Assembly: GCA_011375175.1 (NCBI GenBank)
Contig: DRME01000047.1
Span: 1 to 58,820 of the forward strand
Source of the DNA: Deltaproteobacteria bacterium
GTDB lineage: Bacteria > Desulfobacterota > GWC2-55-46 > DRME01
Length of the DNA: 58,820 nucleotides
Direction: 5' to 3'
The position numbers and the translations under genes were made by a program. The notes beneath the pieces are model-generated. The model was not told the origin of the DNA. It searched no databases and was given only the letters and a program-made list of their open reading frames with translations. Positions 767 through 58,820 of this stretch are shown one piece after another (the stretch's first letter is position 1; every line of letters starts with the position of its first letter).

Positions 767-1161
767 CCGCCTGGGGGGACTTCCTGCAGAAGGGCTCTTC
801 GTTTGCGGCGGCGACCGGGAGGTCCGGGCGCGCCAGGCGGGATCTTTTACGCCTTTGCGCCCGGACCTCCCGGCCGCCGCCGCGCAAGCACATTGACAAG
901 GAAACTCTGATTTATTGCCCTGAGGGAACCTTTTTGTAAAAGGGTCACAGACCCACGGTTCCCCCAGATTGTCCGCGCCGGCTGCCTCTGGGGGCCGTAC
1001 CGGGGGTTCGGGCCGCAAAGGCGTAAAAATATCCCGCCTGGCGCGGGCCGAACCCCCGGTACGGCCGAAGACCCGAATAACATAGGGGCAGGGGGGAAAC
1101 GTGGGCCTGTGGCCCTTCTTCAGAAAGTTTCCCCCAGCGCAATCAATCAGGGCTTCCCTCA
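767..1161. repeat. Compound palindromic element with two K hairpins (E3)
   Basis: This fills the hypA-protease gap. It holds one K hairpin at about 812-889 (GCGCCAGGCGGG first) and a second, inverted K hairpin at about 985-1065 (GCCGCAAAGGCG first), separated by an H2-type remnant with a GGGTCACAGACCC insert. It ends in H1 with a GGGCCTGTGGCCC insert and the terminus CAATCAATCAGGGCTTCCC. That terminus contains the stop codon of the maturation protease gene. Confidence 0.85.
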
Positions 1162-2340: not shown

Positions 2341-2542
2341 AGTTCCGCCTGGGGGAGACTTCCCCGCGCGGGGGGACGGCCCGGCCTCACCCCGAGCTCC
2401 CCTCGGTGGCGGCCTCCCTGAGGTCCGGCCCGCGCCAGGCGGGATTGTTACGCCTTTGCGGCCCGGACCTCCGGGAGGCCGCTGCGCGGACACTCCTCCA
2501 TCCGGCGTGCAAGAAGGGGGAGCCTTTTTCGGAGAGCTTCCC
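2341..2542. repeat. Degenerate palindromic element with K hairpin (E4)
   Basis: This lies between the large-subunit and cytochrome genes. A K hairpin at about 2398-2494 has arms CCTCCCTGAGGTCCGG... and CCGGACCTCCGGGAGG around GCGCCAGGCGGG/TTACGCCTTTGCGG. Flanks are weakly recognisable H1/H2 remnants. Because it is inside an operon, the folded RNA would sit between two coding regions of one message. Confidence 0.75.
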
Positions 2543-5376: not shown

Positions 5377-5600
5377 AGGAAGCTCCGATTAATTACCCTG
5401 GGGGAAACTTTCTGTAGAAGGGCCATAGGCCCACGCTTCCCCCAAACCCCCTTCAAAGACTTCTGATGCCTTTCGTACTCCCCTGATTTTGCAAGCAAAA
5501 TCAGGGGAGTACGAAAGCATTGAAAGTTTTTGGAGGGAGTCTGAGGGAACCTTTTTACAAAAAGGTTCCCTCAGTGCAATAAATCAGAGTTTCCCTAAAG
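5377..5600 (+). repeat. Dispersed palindromic element, full copy with variant C arm (E5)
   Basis: Left terminus (AGGAAGCTCCGATTAATTACC), H1 with a GGGCCATAGGCCC insert, central palindrome with arms GCCTTTCGTACTCCCC... and its complement around TTTTGC-AA-GCAAAA, H2 (GAGGGAACC), and right terminus ending TTTCCCTAAAG. The C arm sequence is unrelated to that of E2, yet pairs as well. It lies upstream of the hydrogenase small subunit and downstream of the histidine kinase gene; 5601-5725 shows no feature. Confidence 0.9.
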
Positions 5601-10365: not shown

Positions 10366-10500
10366 CCTTGCATGGCGGCAACCGGCGCGCCGCGCCGGGC
10401 GGGTTTCTTTACGCCTTTACGGCCCGCCCCGCCGCTCGCCGCCGAGAAGGCGCGCCTGCAAGGAGACTCCCTCCAGGAGTCTTCAAGGCAACTCCGATCT
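10366..10500. repeat. Degenerate palindromic element with K hairpin (E6)
   Basis: The K core GCGCCGGGCGGGTTTCTTTACG..CCTTTACGG is recognisable, but its flanks are largely rewritten (GGCGCGCCGCGCC... and CCGCCGAGAAGGCGCGCC). A relic of the C/H2 spacers (GACTCCCTCCAGGAGTCTTC) follows. It separates hypF from the ABC ATPase gene. Confidence 0.6.
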
Positions 10501-14518: not shown

Positions 14519-14908
14519 CCTGACTCGTTACACCGGGGGAAACTTTCTGTAGCAGGGCCATAGGCCCGCGTTTCCCCCCTGCCCCATCGCATGTTATTCG
14601 GGTCTTCGGCTGTACCGGGGGTTCGGCCCGCGCCAGGCGGGATTGTTTTACGCCTTTGCGGCCCGAACCCCCGGCACAGCCCCCCGAGGCAGCCGGCGCG
14701 GGCAGTCTGGGGGAAACTTTCTGAAGAAAGTTTCCCCCAGACCCCCTTCAAAGACTTTTAATTCCCTGCGGTTCATCCCGATTTGGCTTGCCAAATCGGG
14801 ATGAACCGCAGGGCGTCAAAAGTTTTTGGAGGGAGTCTGAGGGAACCGTGGGTCTGTGACCCTTTTTCAAAAAGGTTCCCTCAGCGCAATAAATCAGAAC
14901 TTCCTTAA
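14519..14908 (+). repeat. Compound palindromic element K + H1-C-H2 (E7)
   Basis: This occupies most of the 505-base gap between nadE and the DUF547 gene. A K half (H1 with GGGCCATAGGCCC insert, K hairpin at about 14605-14690, then GGCAGCCGGCGCGGGCAG) is joined to a complete H1-C-H2 unit. The C palindrome has arms CCCTGCGGTTCATCCCG... and its complement around TTTGGC-TT-GCCAAA. H2 carries a GGGTCTGTGACCC insert. Bases 14419-14518 show nothing beyond the nadE leader. Confidence 0.9.
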
Positions 14909-20230: not shown

Positions 20231-20443
20231 CTTAAGGAAGCTCTGATTAATTACCCTGGGGGAAACTTTCTGTAGAAAGTTTCCCCCAGACCCCCTTCAA
20301 AGACTTTTAATTCCCTGCGGTTCATCCCGATTTTGCAAGCAAAATCGGGATGAACCGCAGGGCGTTAAAAGTTTTTGGAGGGAGTCTGAGGGAACCTTTT
20401 TACAAAAAGGTTCCCTCAGGGCAATAAATCGGAGTCTCTTTAA
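20231..20443 (+). repeat. Dispersed palindromic element, full H1-C-H2 copy (E8)
   Basis: A clean copy without inserts. TTAAGGAAGCTCTGATTAATTACC, perfect H1, C palindrome (CCCTGCGGTTCATCCCG type, TTTTGC-AA-GCAAAA apex), perfect H2, and terminus GCAATAAATCGGAGTCTC. Its right end touches the dksA-like stop codon (TAA at 20442-20440). It fills the apbE to dksA-like gap. Confidence 0.92.
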
Positions 20444-23732: not shown

Positions 23733-24019
23733 GAAGGAGAAGGAAACTTTCTTGAAAAAGGGGCATAGCCCCCTCATCTCGGGTTATGGAAACCCTGATT
23801 AATTGCCCTGGGGGAAACTTTCTGCAGAAGGGCCATAGGCCCGAGGGCCACAGGCCCACGTCCCCCCCTCGCCCAATCGTAAGTTATTCGGATCTTCGGC
23901 TGTACCGGGGAGTTCGGCCCGCGCCAGGCGGGGTTGTTACGCCTTTGCGGCCCGAACCCCCCGCTACACTCCCCCGAGGCAGCCGGCGCGGGCAGTGCAA
24001 TAAATCAGAGCTTCCCTTA
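23733..24019 (+). repeat. Palindromic element with K hairpin (E10)
   Basis: A degenerate H1 relic (GGAAACTTTCTTGAAAAAGG...) is followed by a copy from 23788. That copy has left terminus GGAAACCCTGATTAATTGCC, H1 with a doubled GGGCC/GGCCC insert, K hairpin at about 23893-23975, GGCAGCCGGCGCGGGCAG and right terminus GCAATAAATCAGAGCTTCCC. It cuts directly into the decayed IS3 gene to its right. Confidence 0.85.
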
Positions 24020-24297
24020 TGTTGTCTCGAAGTGCAAACTTTTTTGAGCCGGTCGAGCTCCACCTTAAGCTGGCCGATCTGCCGGTAAAGCTCGTCCGCC
24101 TCGGCCCGGGTCTCCTTCTCCTCCCTCTTGCGCCTGTCCGAGAAAAGCGACAGAAGCTCCTTAAAAAACGTTTTTTCACTGCCCTATCTGGTTCGGATGG
24201 ACCCCGTACTCGCTTGCGAGCTGGGCATCGTCTTTTCCCCCTTCATAGCCTCAAGCGCCACCTTCGCCTTGAATGCAGAGTCGTGGTTCTTTTTCAT
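24020..24297 (-). pseudogene. Decayed IS3-family transposase orfA
   Basis: Minus-strand reading gives MKKNHDSAFKAKVALEAMKGEKT, then, after a one-base shift, QLASEYGVHPNQIGQ, then, after more shifts, KELLSLFSDRRKR and ADELYRQIGQLKVELDRLKK. This is the IS3 OrfA helix-turn-helix and leucine-zipper sequence broken by at least two frameshifts and a stop. orfB is absent; the 3' side runs straight into a palindromic element at about 24020. It is a dead remnant inserted near the hsdS fragment. Confidence 0.85.
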
Positions 24298-24377
24298 CTC
24301 GCCTGCCTTCTTTACAGGTTTCAGCAACCTATCATACACCAAATACCTCTGTACAAATTTTGGGGAGTATTATAGAT

Positions 24378-24487
24378 TGAAGAAATCTGTGACCCTCGCC
24401 GCCATCCGCGATGCGCTTCTGCCCAAACTCATCTCCGGCGAGGTGAGGGTGAAGGATGCGGAGAAGCTTGTGGAGAGTGTGACATGA
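24378..24487 (+). pseudogene. hsdS: 3' remnant of type I restriction specificity gene hsdS
   Basis: The frame reads KKSVTLAAIRDALLPKLISG followed by EVRVKDAEKLVESVT-stop. The LAAxRDALLPKLISGE block with a trailing AEKLVE is the conserved C-terminus of HsdS proteins. Everything upstream, including both target-recognition domains, is gone, replaced by the IS3 relic. No hsdM or hsdR lies nearby. The stop (TGA 24485-24487) overlaps the ATG of the next gene (24484), so the next gene was translationally coupled to hsdS in the original operon. Confidence 0.85.
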
Positions 24488-26403
24488 GTAATGTTGCCAC
24501 TTTGACAAGTCTTGCAATGCTGAAGGTCAGCGTTGATCAGGGTAACGACTATCTCGAATATTTGCGCCCTTTTATACTGCAAGTACTTGTTGACCAGAAG
24601 CCCGATCCTGTGACTGACGTAGGGGTCAGCAATCATCTCCGTGAACAATTCGGCCTTAAGATTCCAGAACGCGTTGTTCAGATTCTTTTGAAGCGCATCG
24701 CACGGAGGCATTTACTCAAAAAAGATGCCGGAGTATATCACATAACGGGTACTTTACCGGACCCTGGAATTGCCATAAGGAAAAGCGAAGCAGACCGGCA
24801 CATCCAGGCAGTGGTTTTAGGTCTAATGGAATTCTCAAAAAGCACCGCCAAACCGATCTCAACTGAAGATGAGGCAGTGAAGGCAATGTGTGCATTCTTG
24901 GAAGAATTCAATATTACTTGTCTTCGTGCATATCTGAGAGGTACGGCTATTCCAACTGTCGTGGGAAAACATCATAGACACATTGTGCTGGTCAGTAAAT
25001 ATGTCCTACATCTGCAACGTAATAACCCAGAACGTTTTGAAAGTTTCCTCGTGGTGCTTCAGGGACATATGCTGGCAAACGCATTACTTTGCCCAGATCT
25101 CCAAAGTGCCCCCAAATCTTACAAGGGTGTCACTTTTTACTTAGACACCCCATTGTTGATACGACGGTTTGGACTTGAGGGTGAGCCAAAGCTGGTGGCA
25201 GTGAAAGAAATAATTCGACTTCTGAATAATCTTGGTGGGACAATTGCTACATTCTCACATTCCCGTGACGAACTGGAGCATGTCCTTAGGAGTGTAGCCA
25301 AGAGTATCGACTCAAGGGATGGCCGCGGGGCTATTGTTATGGAAGCAAAACGCAAAGGCACCACAAAATCCGATCTGCTAGTCTTGGCAGGACAGATCGA
25401 TGGGCAGCTCGCCGAGGCAGGAATTGAAGTTAAAGACACACCAGAATATATTGAAAAATTTCAAATCGATGAAAAAGCTTTTACCGAGGTGCTTAAGGAC
25501 GAGGTGTCATATTTTAATCCACGTGCCAAGGATTACGACATCAACTCTGTACGCAGTATCTATGTCCTCAGAAAGAATTCTTCGCCCTCGATTGTGGAAA
25601 AATGCCGCGCAATTCTCGTAACCAGTAACTCAGGATTCGCACGAGCAGCATATAAATATGGTAAGAGGCATGAAGAATCACGTGAGGTATCGCCTGTGAT
25701 TACCGATTTCAGTCTTGCAAACATGGCCTGGTTGAAAGCTCCGATGGATGCGCCGTCGTTACCGACCATCGAGATACTTGCATACTCTTATGCAGCACTT
25801 CAGCCTTCTAAGGAGTTGCTTGACAAGTTTCTATCTGAGGTTGAGAAGTTAGAACAACAGGGCAAAATCTCTAAACGCGACCATCAACTCCTCCGAAGCA
25901 ACACGCTTGCGCAAGAGGAGATGATGAGCCTGACGTTAGGGGAAGAAACAGCACTTACTGAAGAAACGGTCACTGAGACATTACGGCGTGTTTCAGAAGA
26001 AATCAAGAAGGAGGAGAGCGAAAAACTAACAGCCGAGCAAGCCGCCCATCGCAAGACTCGAGAAGAATTAGTTTCAGAGCGCCAAGAGAGGATGCAGATT
26101 CAGGAAAAGCTTTTCTTGCGATGTCGTCGAAAAGCAAAAATTCTTGCTGTGACTATAACTGTTTTGCTGATAGTTCTTATTGTCCTCGGTCTTATTAAAG
26201 GTGTTGGATTCACGTCAAAAAATCCTCTTTTAGGTTGGTCTTTAATTATGGGGTTGGCCGCAGTTACATTGCTGACACTCGTGAATCTTCTTGCAGGAAC
26301 CACAGTCAAAAATTTGCATCAAAAAATTGAAAACCGTTGTCTCACATGGTTTTTGAAGCGAGAAGCCAAGGCTATAGGCTTTGATCTACGGGACTTTCAG
26401 TGA
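24484..26403 (+). CDS. Uncharacterised PIN-like, membrane-anchored protein from a restriction-modification island
   Basis: 639 residues, family not recognised. Residues 41-88 look like a winged helix (DVGVSNHLREQFGLKIPER...HLLKKDAGVYHITG). Residues about 215-395 have a PIN-nuclease layout: D221 in FYLDTPLLI, E263 in SRDELEHVL, D352 in YDINSVRSIYVLR, and the ILVTSN strand with N382 where PIN domains usually have Asp. A long helical, partly coiled region (about 440-545) precedes two membrane helices (553-572 and 582-604) and a short cytoplasmic end. Base composition is clearly AT-richer than all neighbours, and it begins within the hsdS stop codon, so it arrived with a type I system. A nuclease-effector or sensor role in phage defence is inference. 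It has no obvious own promoter. Confidence 0.8.
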   Translation: MSNVATLTSLAMLKVSVDQGNDYLEYLRPFILQVLVDQKPDPVTDVGVSNHLREQFGLKIPERVVQILLKRIARRHLLKKDAGVYHITGTLPDPGIAIRKSEADRHIQAVVLGLMEFSKSTAKPISTEDEAVKAMCAFLEEFNITCLRAYLRGTAIPTVVGKHHRHIVLVSKYVLHLQRNNPERFESFLVVLQGHMLANALLCPDLQSAPKSYKGVTFYLDTPLLIRRFGLEGEPKLVAVKEIIRLLNNLGGTIATFSHSRDELEHVLRSVAKSIDSRDGRGAIVMEAKRKGTTKSDLLVLAGQIDGQLAEAGIEVKDTPEYIEKFQIDEKAFTEVLKDEVSYFNPRAKDYDINSVRSIYVLRKNSSPSIVEKCRAILVTSNSGFARAAYKYGKRHEESREVSPVITDFSLANMAWLKAPMDAPSLPTIEILAYSYAALQPSKELLDKFLSEVEKLEQQGKISKRDHQLLRSNTLAQEEMMSLTLGEETALTEETVTETLRRVSEEIKKEESEKLTAEQAAHRKTREELVSERQERMQIQEKLFLRCRRKAKILAVTITVLLIVLIVLGLIKGVGFTSKNPLLGWSLIMGLAAVTLLTLVNLLAGTTVKNLHQKIENRCLTWFLKREAKAIGFDLRDFQ

Positions 26404-26436
26404 CCTACATGATAAAGCATAAGCAGTACCGCCCCC

Positions 26437-26778
26437 TCACGCGTACACATCGAGAATAGTTCCCCTCCGCGCTTCCCGTCCTTCCCACAGGCCCCTGGAG
26501 TTGTACGTCGAATAGGCCCCGCCGGCCGCTCCCGCGGTGCGCTGCCTCGCGGGCCGCCTGTAAACGGACTCCTCGCCGCTTCGACCCACGGAGCTCCACA
26601 CCCTCCCATGCCTGGCGAGCTCTATGACGTCGCGCTGCGTCGATGGATCGCCACGCTCGCGCGCAGCGTCGCCGTCTACGGCGTAACCGGGCAGGGGGTC
26701 CCTCACCCCGGTGACGTCAATGGCCTCTTCGCCGCCGTAAAAGTTGTAGACGTTCAGGACTATGCCGCTTACGTTCAT
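26437..26778 (-). CDS. Hypothetical small protein
   Basis: 113 residues if started at the ATG at 26778; codons further upstream belong to the adjacent repeat. It starts MNVSGIVLNVYNFYGG and ends GTILDVYA. The middle is Arg/Gly-rich and probably disordered. A GGGAGG sequence lies about 11 bases before the ATG. GC content is that of the host genome, unlike the neighbour at 24484-26403. No family recognised; it could be spurious, but the ordered N- and C-terminal ends look protein-like. Confidence 0.45.
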   Translation of the reverse strand: MNVSGIVLNVYNFYGGEEAIDVTGVRDPLPGYAVDGDAARERGDPSTQRDVIELARHGRVWSSVGRSGEESVYRRPARQRTAGAAGGAYSTYNSRGLWEGREARRGTILDVYA

Positions 26779-26792
26779 CTTCCCGGCCGCCT

Positions 26793-27254
26793 CCCGGGGA
26801 AACCTTTCTGAAGAAAGGCTTCCCCGGACCCCTTCCAAAGACTTTCAATACGAGTTGGCTTCCCCCTGTTTTGCCTGGCAAAACAGGGGGGAAACCAACT
26901 CGCGTTAAAAGGTTCCCTCAGACTCCCTCCAAAAACTTTTTGTTTGCTCTTCGAGCCGCGTTGGTTCTCATGATCGCTGAGGAAACGAGGTCCTTAAGCC
27001 CAAGTTAAAAGTCTTTGAAGGGGGTCTGGGGGAAACTTTCTTCAGAAAGTTTCCCCCAGGTTGCCCGCGCCGGCTGCCACTGGGGCTGTACCGGGGAGTT
27101 CGGGCCGCAAAGGCGTAACAACCCCGCCTGGCGCGGCCCGAACTCCCCGGTACAGCCGAAGTTCCGAATAACATACGATGGGGCGAGGGGGGACGCGGGC
27201 CTGCGGCCCTTCTGCAGAAAGTTTCCCACAGGATAATTGGTCAGGGGTTCCTTA
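26793..27254. repeat. Compound palindromic element with rearranged modules (E11)
   Basis: H1-like hairpin (CGGGGAAACCTTTC...), C palindrome with arms GAGTTGGCTTCCCCC.../...AACCAACTC, then an inverted H2 spacer (GGTTCCCTCAGACTCCCTCC). About 60 unique bases follow (26940-27003), then an inverted C spacer, H1, an inverted K hairpin (about 27083-27160), and H1 with GGGCCTGCGGCCC insert and terminus. Together with flanks it explains the 524-base gap between the small ORF and the redoxin gene. Bases 27255-27302 hold only an A-run. Confidence 0.85.
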
Positions 27255-34261: not shown

Positions 34262-34437
34262 ATTGATTACCCTGGGGGAAACTTTCTGAAGAAAGTTTCC
34301 CCCAGACCCCCTTCAAAGACTTTCAATACGAGTTGGTTTCCCCCTGTTTTGCCTGGCGAAACAGGGGGAAACCAACTCGCATTAAAAGTTTTTGGAGGGA
34401 GTCTGAGGGAACCTTTTTTCAAAAAGGTTCCCTCATG
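34262..34437 (+). repeat. Dispersed palindromic element H1-C-H2 (E14)
   Basis: Perfect H1 (GGGGGAAACTTTC), C palindrome with arms GAGTTGGTTTCCCCC.../...AACCAACTC around TTTTGC-CTG-GCGAAA, perfect H2. The right terminus is missing: H2 runs directly into the leader of the Trm112-like gene. The left terminus is shortened to ATTGATTACC. It lies inside the LPS cluster. Confidence 0.9.
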
Positions 34438-44478: not shown

Positions 44479-44812
44479 CGGGGGAGACTTTATACTGCCC
44501 GCGCCGGCTGCCACTGGGGGCTGTACCGGGGAGTCCGGGCCGCAAAGGCGTAACAACCCCGCCTGGCGCGGGCCGGACTCCCCGCTACAGCCGAAGATAC
44601 GAATAACATACGATGGGGCGAGGGGGAGAAACGTGGGCCTGTGGCCCTCGGGCCTGTGGCCCTTCTACAGAAAGTTTCCCCCAGGGCAATTAATCAGAGT
44701 TTCCCTGCGGTCCGCGGAGGTTCGGACCGCAAAGGCGTAAAAAACCCCGCCTGGCGCGGTCCGAACCTCCGCGGACCGCCCCCAGCGGGCGGGGGGGACG
44801 TACGAACGGCAT
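44479..44812 (-). repeat. Compound palindromic element with two K hairpins (E16)
   Basis: Fills the gap between the DUF4416 gene and yicC. The first inverted K is at about 44518-44592 (arms CTGTACCGGGGAGTCCGG.../...CCGGACTCCCCGCTACAG). H1 with doubled GGGCCTGTGGCCC inserts and a terminus (GGGCAATTAATCAGAGTTTCCC) follow. A second inverted K is at about 44707-44781 (arms GCGGTCCGCGGAGGTTCGG.../...CCGAACCTCCGCGGACCGC). No gene here. Confidence 0.88.
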
Positions 44813-47061: not shown

Positions 47062-47300
47062 TAGGAAGCTCTGATTTATTGCACTGAGGGAACCTTTTTG
47101 TAAAGGGTCATAGACCCACGGGTCACAGACCCCCGGTTCCCTCAGACTCCCTCCAAAAACTTTTAATGCGACCTGGTTTCCCCCTGTTTTGCCTGGCAAA
47201 ACAGGGGGAAACCAGGTCGTATTGAAAGTCTTTGAAGGGGGTCTGGGGGAAACTTTCTACAGAAAGTTTCCCCCAGGGTCATTAATCAGAGTTTCCCTTA
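47062..47300 (-). repeat. Dispersed palindromic element, inverted H2-C-H1 copy (E17)
   Basis: Order is reversed relative to E2: AGGAAGCTCTGATTTATTGC, H2 with a GGGTCATAGACCC-type insert, CAGACTCCCTCCAAAAAC, C palindrome with arms GACCTGGTTTCCCCC.../...AACCAGGTC, AAAGTCTTTGAAGGGGGTC, perfect H1, and terminus. The terminus gives the stop codon of the MBL gene on the minus strand. Confidence 0.92.
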
Positions 47301-51995: not shown

Positions 51996-52190
51996 CGTCC
52001 CGCCCTGGGGGCGGTACGGGAGGAGGTTCGGGCCGCAAAGGCGTAAAAAGATCCCGCCTGGCGCGGGCCGAACCTCCCCCGTACCGCCGGGCATCCGCAA
52101 GACATATAGAGGGAGCCTAGGGGAAAGATGGGCCTGTGGCCCTTCTATAGAAGGTTTCCCCCAGTAAGTATTTAATCGGGGTTTCCTTAA
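51996..52190 (-). repeat. Palindromic element with inverted K hairpin (E18)
   Basis: K hairpin at about 52008-52088 with arms GGCGGTACGGGAGGAGG.../...CCTCCCCCGTACCGCC around the constant GCCGCAAAGGCGTAA core. The GAATAACATA-type junction is degenerate (AAGACATATAG). H1 with a GGGCCTGTGGCCC insert and the terminus TTTAATCGGGGTTTCC follow. It lies between the divergent ileS and crcB genes. Bases 52191-52314 carry the crcB leader, in which I looked for a fluoride riboswitch and saw none. Confidence 0.85.
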
Positions 52191-54620: not shown

Positions 54621-54875
54621 AAGGAAGCTCGGATTACCCTGGGGGAAACTTTCCGTAGAAGGGCCACAGGCCCGCGTTTCCCCCTGCCCCATCGCATGGT
54701 ATTCGGATATTCGGCTGTACCGGGGGTTCGGCCCGCGCCAGGCGGGATTTTTACGCCTTTGCGGCCCGAACCCCCCGGTACAGCCCCCAAGGCAGCCGGC
54801 GCGGGCAGCCTGGGGGAAACTTTCTGAAGAAAGTTTCCCCCAGACCCCCTTCAAAGACTTTTAATTCCCTGTTTC
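54621..54875 (+). repeat. Palindromic element K + H1, truncated in C (E19)
   Basis: AAGGAAGCTCGGATTACC, H1 with a GGGCCACAGGCCC insert, K hairpin at about 54710-54786, GGCAGCCGGCGCGGGCAG, perfect H1, C spacer, and then only the first bases of C (TTCCCTG) before ending in unique sequence. Bases 54876-55063 contain no gene. Confidence 0.88.
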
Positions 54876-58682: not shown

Positions 58683-58820
58683 CTACACTGAGGGAACCTT
58701 TTTGTAAAAAGGTTCCCTCAGACTCCCTCCAAAAACTTTTAATGCGAGTTGGTTTCCCCCTGTTTTGCCAGGCAAAACAGGGGGAAACCAACTCGTATTG
58801 AAAGTCTTTGAAGGGGGTCT
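58683..58820 (-). repeat. Dispersed palindromic element, inverted, cut by window end (E20)
   Basis: CACTGAGGGAACC... perfect H2, CAGACTCCCTCCAAAAAC, C palindrome with arms GAGTTGGTTTCCCCC.../...AACCAACTC around TTTTGC-CAG-GCAAAA, then AAAGTCTTTGAAGGGGGTCT. H1 and the far terminus lie beyond the window. Confidence 0.9.

Follow-up and report, generated by a model that had tools for sequence, protein, structure and literature searches.

Folded DNA sites that recur throughout a genome are known, to the best of our knowledge, mainly in association with HUH transposases, as in REP elements, or with integron integrases, as in attC. An attC site is a folded DNA hairpin that is read mainly by its structure and has a variable stem sequence; the constant part lies at the base of the hairpin, and the R'/R'' core sites follow the consensus GTTRRRY and its complement. 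REP elements are described as 20 to 40 bp long and mostly carrying a GTAG or CGTC tag (PMC3733652), and the bulge of the E. coli REP as a feature that a protein recognizes on folded single-stranded DNA (PMC8266576). A third source attributes to template switching between the arms of an inverted repeat both the homogenization of those arms and the inversion of the spacer (PMC8604942).

Here we describe K, a family of intergenic hairpins in a Deltaproteobacteria bacterium (GenBank assembly GCA_011375175.1), starting from the copy at 14608 to 14681 of the window, by which we mean the whole analyzed stretch of 58,820 nucleotides (contig DRME01000047.1). A literature search that covered few subscription papers found no recognized account of a K-like family.

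Copies of K in the window, the genome, and other genomes

The first-pass annotation had listed eleven K copies in the window, and all eleven are present (Table 1). The motif GCGCCAGGCGGG is exact in 10 of them, with a single change in the copy at 10392, and TTACGCCTTTGCGG is exact in 9, with one change in each of the other two. When up to two mismatches are allowed, TTACGCCTTTGCGG is matched 11 times in the window where 0.46 would be expected by chance, whereas GCGCCAGGCGGG alone has 42 matches against 33 expected and is not rarer than chance.

Table 1. Positions in the window of the K copies and of the constant core halves of the copy at 14608 to 14681
Feature	Coordinates	Strand
K copy, arms unlike the common type	808..880	+
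K copy, common (A) type, flanks conserved	993..1066	-
K copy, arms unlike the common type	2410..2481	+
K copy, degenerate: 2 of 26 core letters changed, stem partly unpaired	10370..10442	+
K hairpin named in the first-pass annotation: two 24-nt arms, core, apical loop	14608..14681	+
5' half of its constant core (CGC + GCC + AGGCG + GG)	14629..14641	+
3' half of its constant core (TTA + CGCCT + TT + GCG)	14648..14660	+
K copy, A type	23899..23970	+
K copy, A type	27085..27156	-
K copy, A type; stem relative to the copy at 27085 has a paired double change among other changes	44520..44591	-
K copy, fully paired, arms unlike the common type	44707..44779	-
K copy between the divergent genes IleRS and CrcB-like	52013..52086	-
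A-type K copy upstream of mnmG, in a gap between divergent genes	54713..54784	+

In the host assembly (2.49 Mb in 138 contigs, 98.6% complete), a loose pattern for the core has 202 matches, 98 forward and 104 reverse, against 0 for a reversed control, which amounts to about one copy per 12 kb; a strict pattern has 186. The comparisons among copies draw on 173 that were fetched by the core pattern or by a covariance model.

In the other genomes searched, the family is not seen above chance. Across 394 further genomes of the phylum, the loose pattern matched 13 times, in 12 genomes, and its reversed control 7 times, in 6, which puts these matches at chance level. A covariance-model search of 47 other genomes of the order, run with stricter filters and on at most 99 candidates per genome, gave no K match, nor did the exact pattern in 58 other genomes of the order and class, nor the strict pattern in viral contigs or in GTDB contigs, a set that may omit the host's own genome. 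A loose pattern matched 118 viral stretches, 80 of which were taken as loci; K arms were absent from all 84 outside matches checked (these 80 and four phylum loci), the best of which had 11 of 20 pairs. Judged by IleRS, the closest relatives with a name are uncultured Deltaproteobacteria with at most 68% identity, and a search of 30 of the 80 loci around IleRS relatives gave nothing above noise (best E 1.9).

The window holds other features beside K. A repeat family built around GGGGGAAACTTTCTG(T/A)AGAAGGGCC...GTTTCCCCC is often mosaic with K and with palindromes (copies at 42 to 252, 899 to 972, 5377 to 5450, 23787 to 23860, and others). Between two K copies lies an island of low GC content (24000 to 26450; 46 to 53% GC per kilobase, against 59 to 72% elsewhere) with an open reading frame of 639 amino acids (24484 to 26403), which matched no Pfam family and no NCBIfam at E 0.001 and had only a weak match to a PADLOC model (E 0.039).

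Architecture of the hairpin

K is a unit of about 73 bp. Its outer stem, some 24 bp long, leads to an internal loop in which GCC faces TT; beyond this come a 5-bp helix (AGGCG/CGCCT) and, between GGCG and CGCC, an apical loop that measures 8 to 12 nt in 167 copies. Its constant tip comprises the CGC/GCG stem, the GCC-versus-TT internal loop, the AGGCG/CGCCT helix, and the bases beside the apical loop. The first-pass annotation had proposed such a fold for the copy at 14608 to 14681, and the hairpin, the internal loop, and the apical loop all stand. It had also assigned the A of GCCA to the loop, and this part needs correction: across 194 copies with 0 to 3 core changes, the A and the first T of TTT form A-T in 177, G-C in 10, G.T in 6, and A.C in 1. 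The A is therefore a paired base, and the inner helix has 5 bp.

Pairing drops beyond position 24 in most copies, with 4 to 7 bp of extra pairing in 14 of 173. Within the stem, a C.C mismatch at position 5, counted from the internal loop, recurs in 103 of 166 copies. Folded as DNA, the stretch from 14606 to 14683 has z values of -6.2 and -9.2, one for each strand, and both strands fold stably in all four K copies that were tested.

Constraint on the core

Because the picking pattern fixed most core letters, core identity in the 173-copy set is biased, and we therefore drew a separate, unbiased sample by flank. A search of the genome with a 14-base flank motif that is silent on the core found 48 places. 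The core is exact at 44 of them, carries one change at another, and carries two at a further one; over the 46 cores of 26 letters, this is 3 changes in 1,196. Of the remaining two places, the first sits at the end of its contig, with K falling outside. At the second (L245, G000:C85:4200-4800) the K flanks are intact, but the tip is gone together with most of the stem, and the hairpin is reduced to a short palindrome that may have arisen by natural loss. A laxer search of 332 kb found 162 copies with no core change, 18 with one, 9 with two, and 5 with three, none with four or five, and then a chance tail of 46 at six to eight.

The flanks differ even between nearest relatives within the family. 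Copies with conserved flanks were matched into the 50 closest pairs, no copy being used twice. Within these pairs, differences number 385 in 3,534 flank sites (10.9%) and 148 in 2,049 arm sites; the apical loop has 36 in 271 and changes its length in 31 of the 50 pairs. The core differs at 3 of 1,250, a figure that is biased low by the collection of copies through the core pattern. The K core is under constraint.

These figures bear on the view that K is an ordinary, terminator-like family of palindromes that has no special reader and whose core is constant merely by youth. The window is indeed rich in palindromes: its 58.8 kb hold 17 long hairpins (7 of them K), whereas 640 kb of sequence around the IleRS genes of relatives, mostly coding, has 12. 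Within a given copy, however, the core has diverged far less than the flanks and the apical loop, the flanks changing about 40 times faster; nor is the placement of K, described below, that of a terminator. We consider this view very improbable.

Copying-over between K sites (gene conversion), which could homogenize them, is disfavored because the hypervariable apical loop splits the core into its two constant halves. A dimer on B-form DNA is also disfavored, the half-sites being 8 to 12 nt apart. With a variable loop between constant halves, the folded form is the natural object of reading. The first-pass annotation had suggested a protein-recognition site on the strength of a fixed internal loop within a drifting stem; the constraint on the core supports a recognition site, whereas the drifting paired stem is weaker evidence than supposed, because template switching also homogenizes arms.

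Paired variation, core flips, and probable template switching

The stem does vary between copies while staying paired, as had been proposed from the window. Counted over 92 of 96 K copies, standard pairs make up 93.2% of stem cells against 76.4% in shuffles, the covariation score is 0.400 against 0.111, and both members of the pair have changed in 365 stem cells, compared with 102 in shuffles; shifting the partner by 1 to 3 columns lowers pairing to 48.8% or less. Copies collected from the rest of the genome do not show the random loop changes and unpaired stem changes that the first-pass annotation had named as contrary evidence, although 90 of 166 copies have one to three mismatches at stem positions 1 to 21.

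The counts that follow use a gapped helix, since ungapped tables are blurred by single-base bulges, and cover 166 of the 173 copies; three copies with broken stems, among them the window copy at 10370, and four with too little flank were left out. Of 3,312 stem cells, 3,179 (96%) are Watson-Crick, 69 A.C, 16 G.T, and 48 other. No mismatch occurs in 76 copies, one in 55, and two or three in 35. In the close pairs, 30 stem changes are one-sided, 23 two-sided and paired, and 3 two-sided and unpaired; the 30 one-sided changes indicate that imperfect K stems persist, a point against the explanation favored below.

Caution is needed here, in that paired changes in palindromes can stem from template switching, and covariation alone is no proof of structural selection. 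Both marks of that process are present in K. Arm homogenization is seen in the 96% of Watson-Crick cells, although selection for pairing would look alike. Spacer inversion is seen at about 10 loci, where the core is inverted between conserved flanks: among the 173 copies, the flanks stand in the common order in 102, in inverted order only in 12, both ways in 2, and neither way in 57. Two of the 12 inverted cases were judged to be chance, and five flips are supported on both sides. The C.C mismatch tells a similar story in 84 A-type copies, having become G.C in 14 and C.G in 4 (18 in total), against 4 with TC or CA; selection for pairing would also favor the change from C.C to G.C. The inequality of A.C and G.T in the stem, in turn, is not predicted by template switching alone.

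A second family in the window, of long and near-perfect palindromes, has 23 to 33 paired bases and a loop of 1 to 9 nt, and its copies (116 to 174, 5470 to 5517, 14761 to 14816, 20303 to 20372, 34319 to 34389, 47159 to 47229, and 58735 to 58805) differ yet stay paired. We count such paired differences in other palindromes of the window in favor of template switching.

Template switching could thus account for the paired drift without selection on pairing, and paired drift alone is no proof that anything binds K. The tip is another matter. Template switching would tend to erase an unpaired internal loop, yet the loop persists, so that selection must be what keeps the tip; our case for selection on K accordingly comes from the invariance of the unpaired loop and tip, not from pairing. 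This selection acts either through a host site or through the capacity of the element to spread.

The former possibility can be put more fully: K sites might be structural or regulatory DNA owned by the host (for the nucleoid, for replication, or for insulation of transcription) and kept for the benefit of the cell rather than by spread. Dispersed copies sampled by flank keep an exact core in 44 of 46 cases while their flanks diverge, and K occurs in all intergenic types at about one per 12 kb. The core nevertheless stands in either orientation between the same flanks, the family is not above chance in the relatives searched, and K with its flanks also forms tandem arrays in steps of about 174 bp (five copies at G000:C134:1768-2541, L109, and three at G000:C80:11610-12038, L110), which resemble amplification and not planned sites. 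On balance, we regard host ownership as unlikely.

Placement and orientation: DNA or RNA

By codon-model gene calls, only 1 of 173 K copies overlaps a gene. In spaces between tandem genes, 49 copies have the orientation of the genes and 54 the opposite one; 25 lie between divergent genes, 12 between convergent genes, and 32 could not be placed between two genes in the sequence collected around them. As an intergenic baseline, the window gaps of at least 75 nt comprise 5 divergent, 2 convergent, and 15 tandem. A terminator reading was rejected on the divergent and convergent counts, and the even orientation together with the placement is a poor fit to a terminator or to an mRNA element of fixed strand. 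Neighboring copies within 6 kb have the same orientation in 41 cases and the opposite one in 22, an excess that sits in pairs less than 300 bp apart, that is, in tandem units (19 versus 6; beyond this distance, 22 versus 16).

The lack of orientation relative to genes favors action at the level of DNA over RNA. Were K a transcribed RNA hairpin, its internal loop might bind an RNA-binding protein or an RNase and so serve RNA stability, processing, or attenuation. The RNA fold is strong (z of -4.3 for the wider stretch 14590 to 14710), the covariation resembles that of RNA motifs, and there is a possible single-strand bias in the wobble pairs that the stem tolerates. Against this, K has no orientation relative to transcription (49 versus 54), and more copies lie between divergent than between convergent genes; G.T pairs, moreover, are rare on the K strand, at 16 of 3,312 cells. 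Rfam gave no match in the window at the gathering score. A known RNA family at 14560 to 14740 was likewise dismissed: the 33 relaxed Rfam matches there, including those to the copy at 14608 to 14681, all lie below gathering, are mostly to microRNA precursors, and were ignored. An RNA role appears to us quite unlikely.

Counted as distinct position-by-type events, stem mismatches on the K strand number 25 A.C against 10 G.T (P = 0.017), which is suggestive, as if the complementary strand folds. The core pair leans the opposite way, with 6 G.T and 1 A.C. Because the two biases are opposed, we do not use strand bias to name an active strand.

Candidate readers

K has the REP trait of a high-copy intergenic palindrome (202 matches, with 1 of 173 copies overlapping a gene). 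At about 73 bp, it falls outside the REP unit size of 20 to 40 bp, and the tags are no more frequent near its base than in a control stretch: of 167 copies, 2 have GTAG and 12 have CGTC, against 4 and 29 in the control. A search for RAYT (PF01797, Y1_Tnp) found none in the host assembly, from whose 138 contigs repeated genes may drop, and matched 5 of 14 control genomes. A REP mobilized by a RAYT was rejected because no PF01797 match was found in the assembly. The corresponding search for PF04986 (Y2_Tnp) is uninformative, since it found nothing in the host genome and nothing in the control genomes either.

Two tyrosine recombinases were found in the host, and both score best as XerC/XerD-type. 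Against the integron integrase model TIGR02249 they reach 135 to 137 bits, where the cut-off is 265. With no RAYT and only XerC/XerD-like tyrosine recombinases found in the genome, the reader of K is a protein that we infer.

The recombinases also bear on another reading, in which K belongs to an integron-like system for the capture of accessory genes and serves it as a folded, attC-like site of recombination. One of the two passes NF040815 (224.5 versus a cut-off of 220), a Xer model described as site-specific tyrosine recombinase/integron integrase. In addition, near the end of one contig (L073, G000:C63 101400-105250), a gene with a weak OLD-like TOPRIM match, followed by a MazE/PIN toxin-antitoxin pair, lies between direct K units that have about 40 nt of flank in common, the TOPRIM match scoring 22.4 bits, just under the Pfam cut-off of 23.2. 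The end of this contig resembles the start of a zinc-ribbon transposase. Against an attC-like role, GTTRRRY and its complement are found in 1 of 167 K copies on one strand and in none on both, both recombinases fall far below the TIGR02249 cut-off, and among the 20 genes scanned, those assigned to a family mostly have housekeeping or metabolic roles. An integron-like system is, in our judgment, the least probable of the explanations considered, to the point of being barely credible.

Proposed mode of action

We tentatively favor an explanation in which K is a REP-like DNA repeat dispersed through intergenic spaces, with a folded tip that a putative protein reads and a stem that template switching rewrites. 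The roughly 200 copies would work as folded DNA hairpins, with a putative trans-acting protein reading the constant tip, most likely on single-stranded or cruciform DNA. This reader would probably be either a transposase or nuclease that spread K or a protein of the host that came to use it. The role of the outer stem (about 24 bp) may be only to keep the tip folded, which would leave the stem sequence free to drift; template switching between the arms may be the main way in which stem pairing is restored, and it would also flip the core. As for spread, 57 of the 173 collected copies fit neither conserved flank motif; no empty K site was found, so that mobility, too, is something we infer.

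A broader proposal would make K a new class of structure-read DNA site, with about 200 hairpins in a single genome that have no fixed information besides a folded tip and its noncomplementary internal loop, with a hairpin-binding protein that is neither a RAYT nor an integron integrase, and with stems that are rewritten and flipped by the replication machinery. This is possible, if rather doubtful. If true, K would be a third case of genome-wide folded DNA sites beside REP and attC. In K, moreover, the constant tip is cleanly set apart from the free stem in a way that can be tested, and some 200 natural variants are available for testing the binding of a protein.

Comparison with known systems

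K resembles attC in being a hairpin with a variable stem. It differs in that its constant part is at the tip, in that it is without GTTRRRY sites, and in that the genome has no integrase above the TIGR02249 cut-off. Like REP, BIME, and REPIN elements, K is high-copy, intergenic, and palindromic, and it has a fixed internal loop in its stem, comparable to the REP bulge that is read by protein (PMC8266576). Measured against the REP size and tags given in PMC3733652, K is longer, at about 73 bp, and tagless, its arms are strongly variable, and no RAYT was found in the genome. With the quasipalindromes shaped by template switching, as PMC8604942 presents them, K has arm homogenization and spacer inversion in common. 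A constrained tip is not expected of a plain quasipalindrome, whereas K has a noncomplementary internal loop and a nearly exact core.
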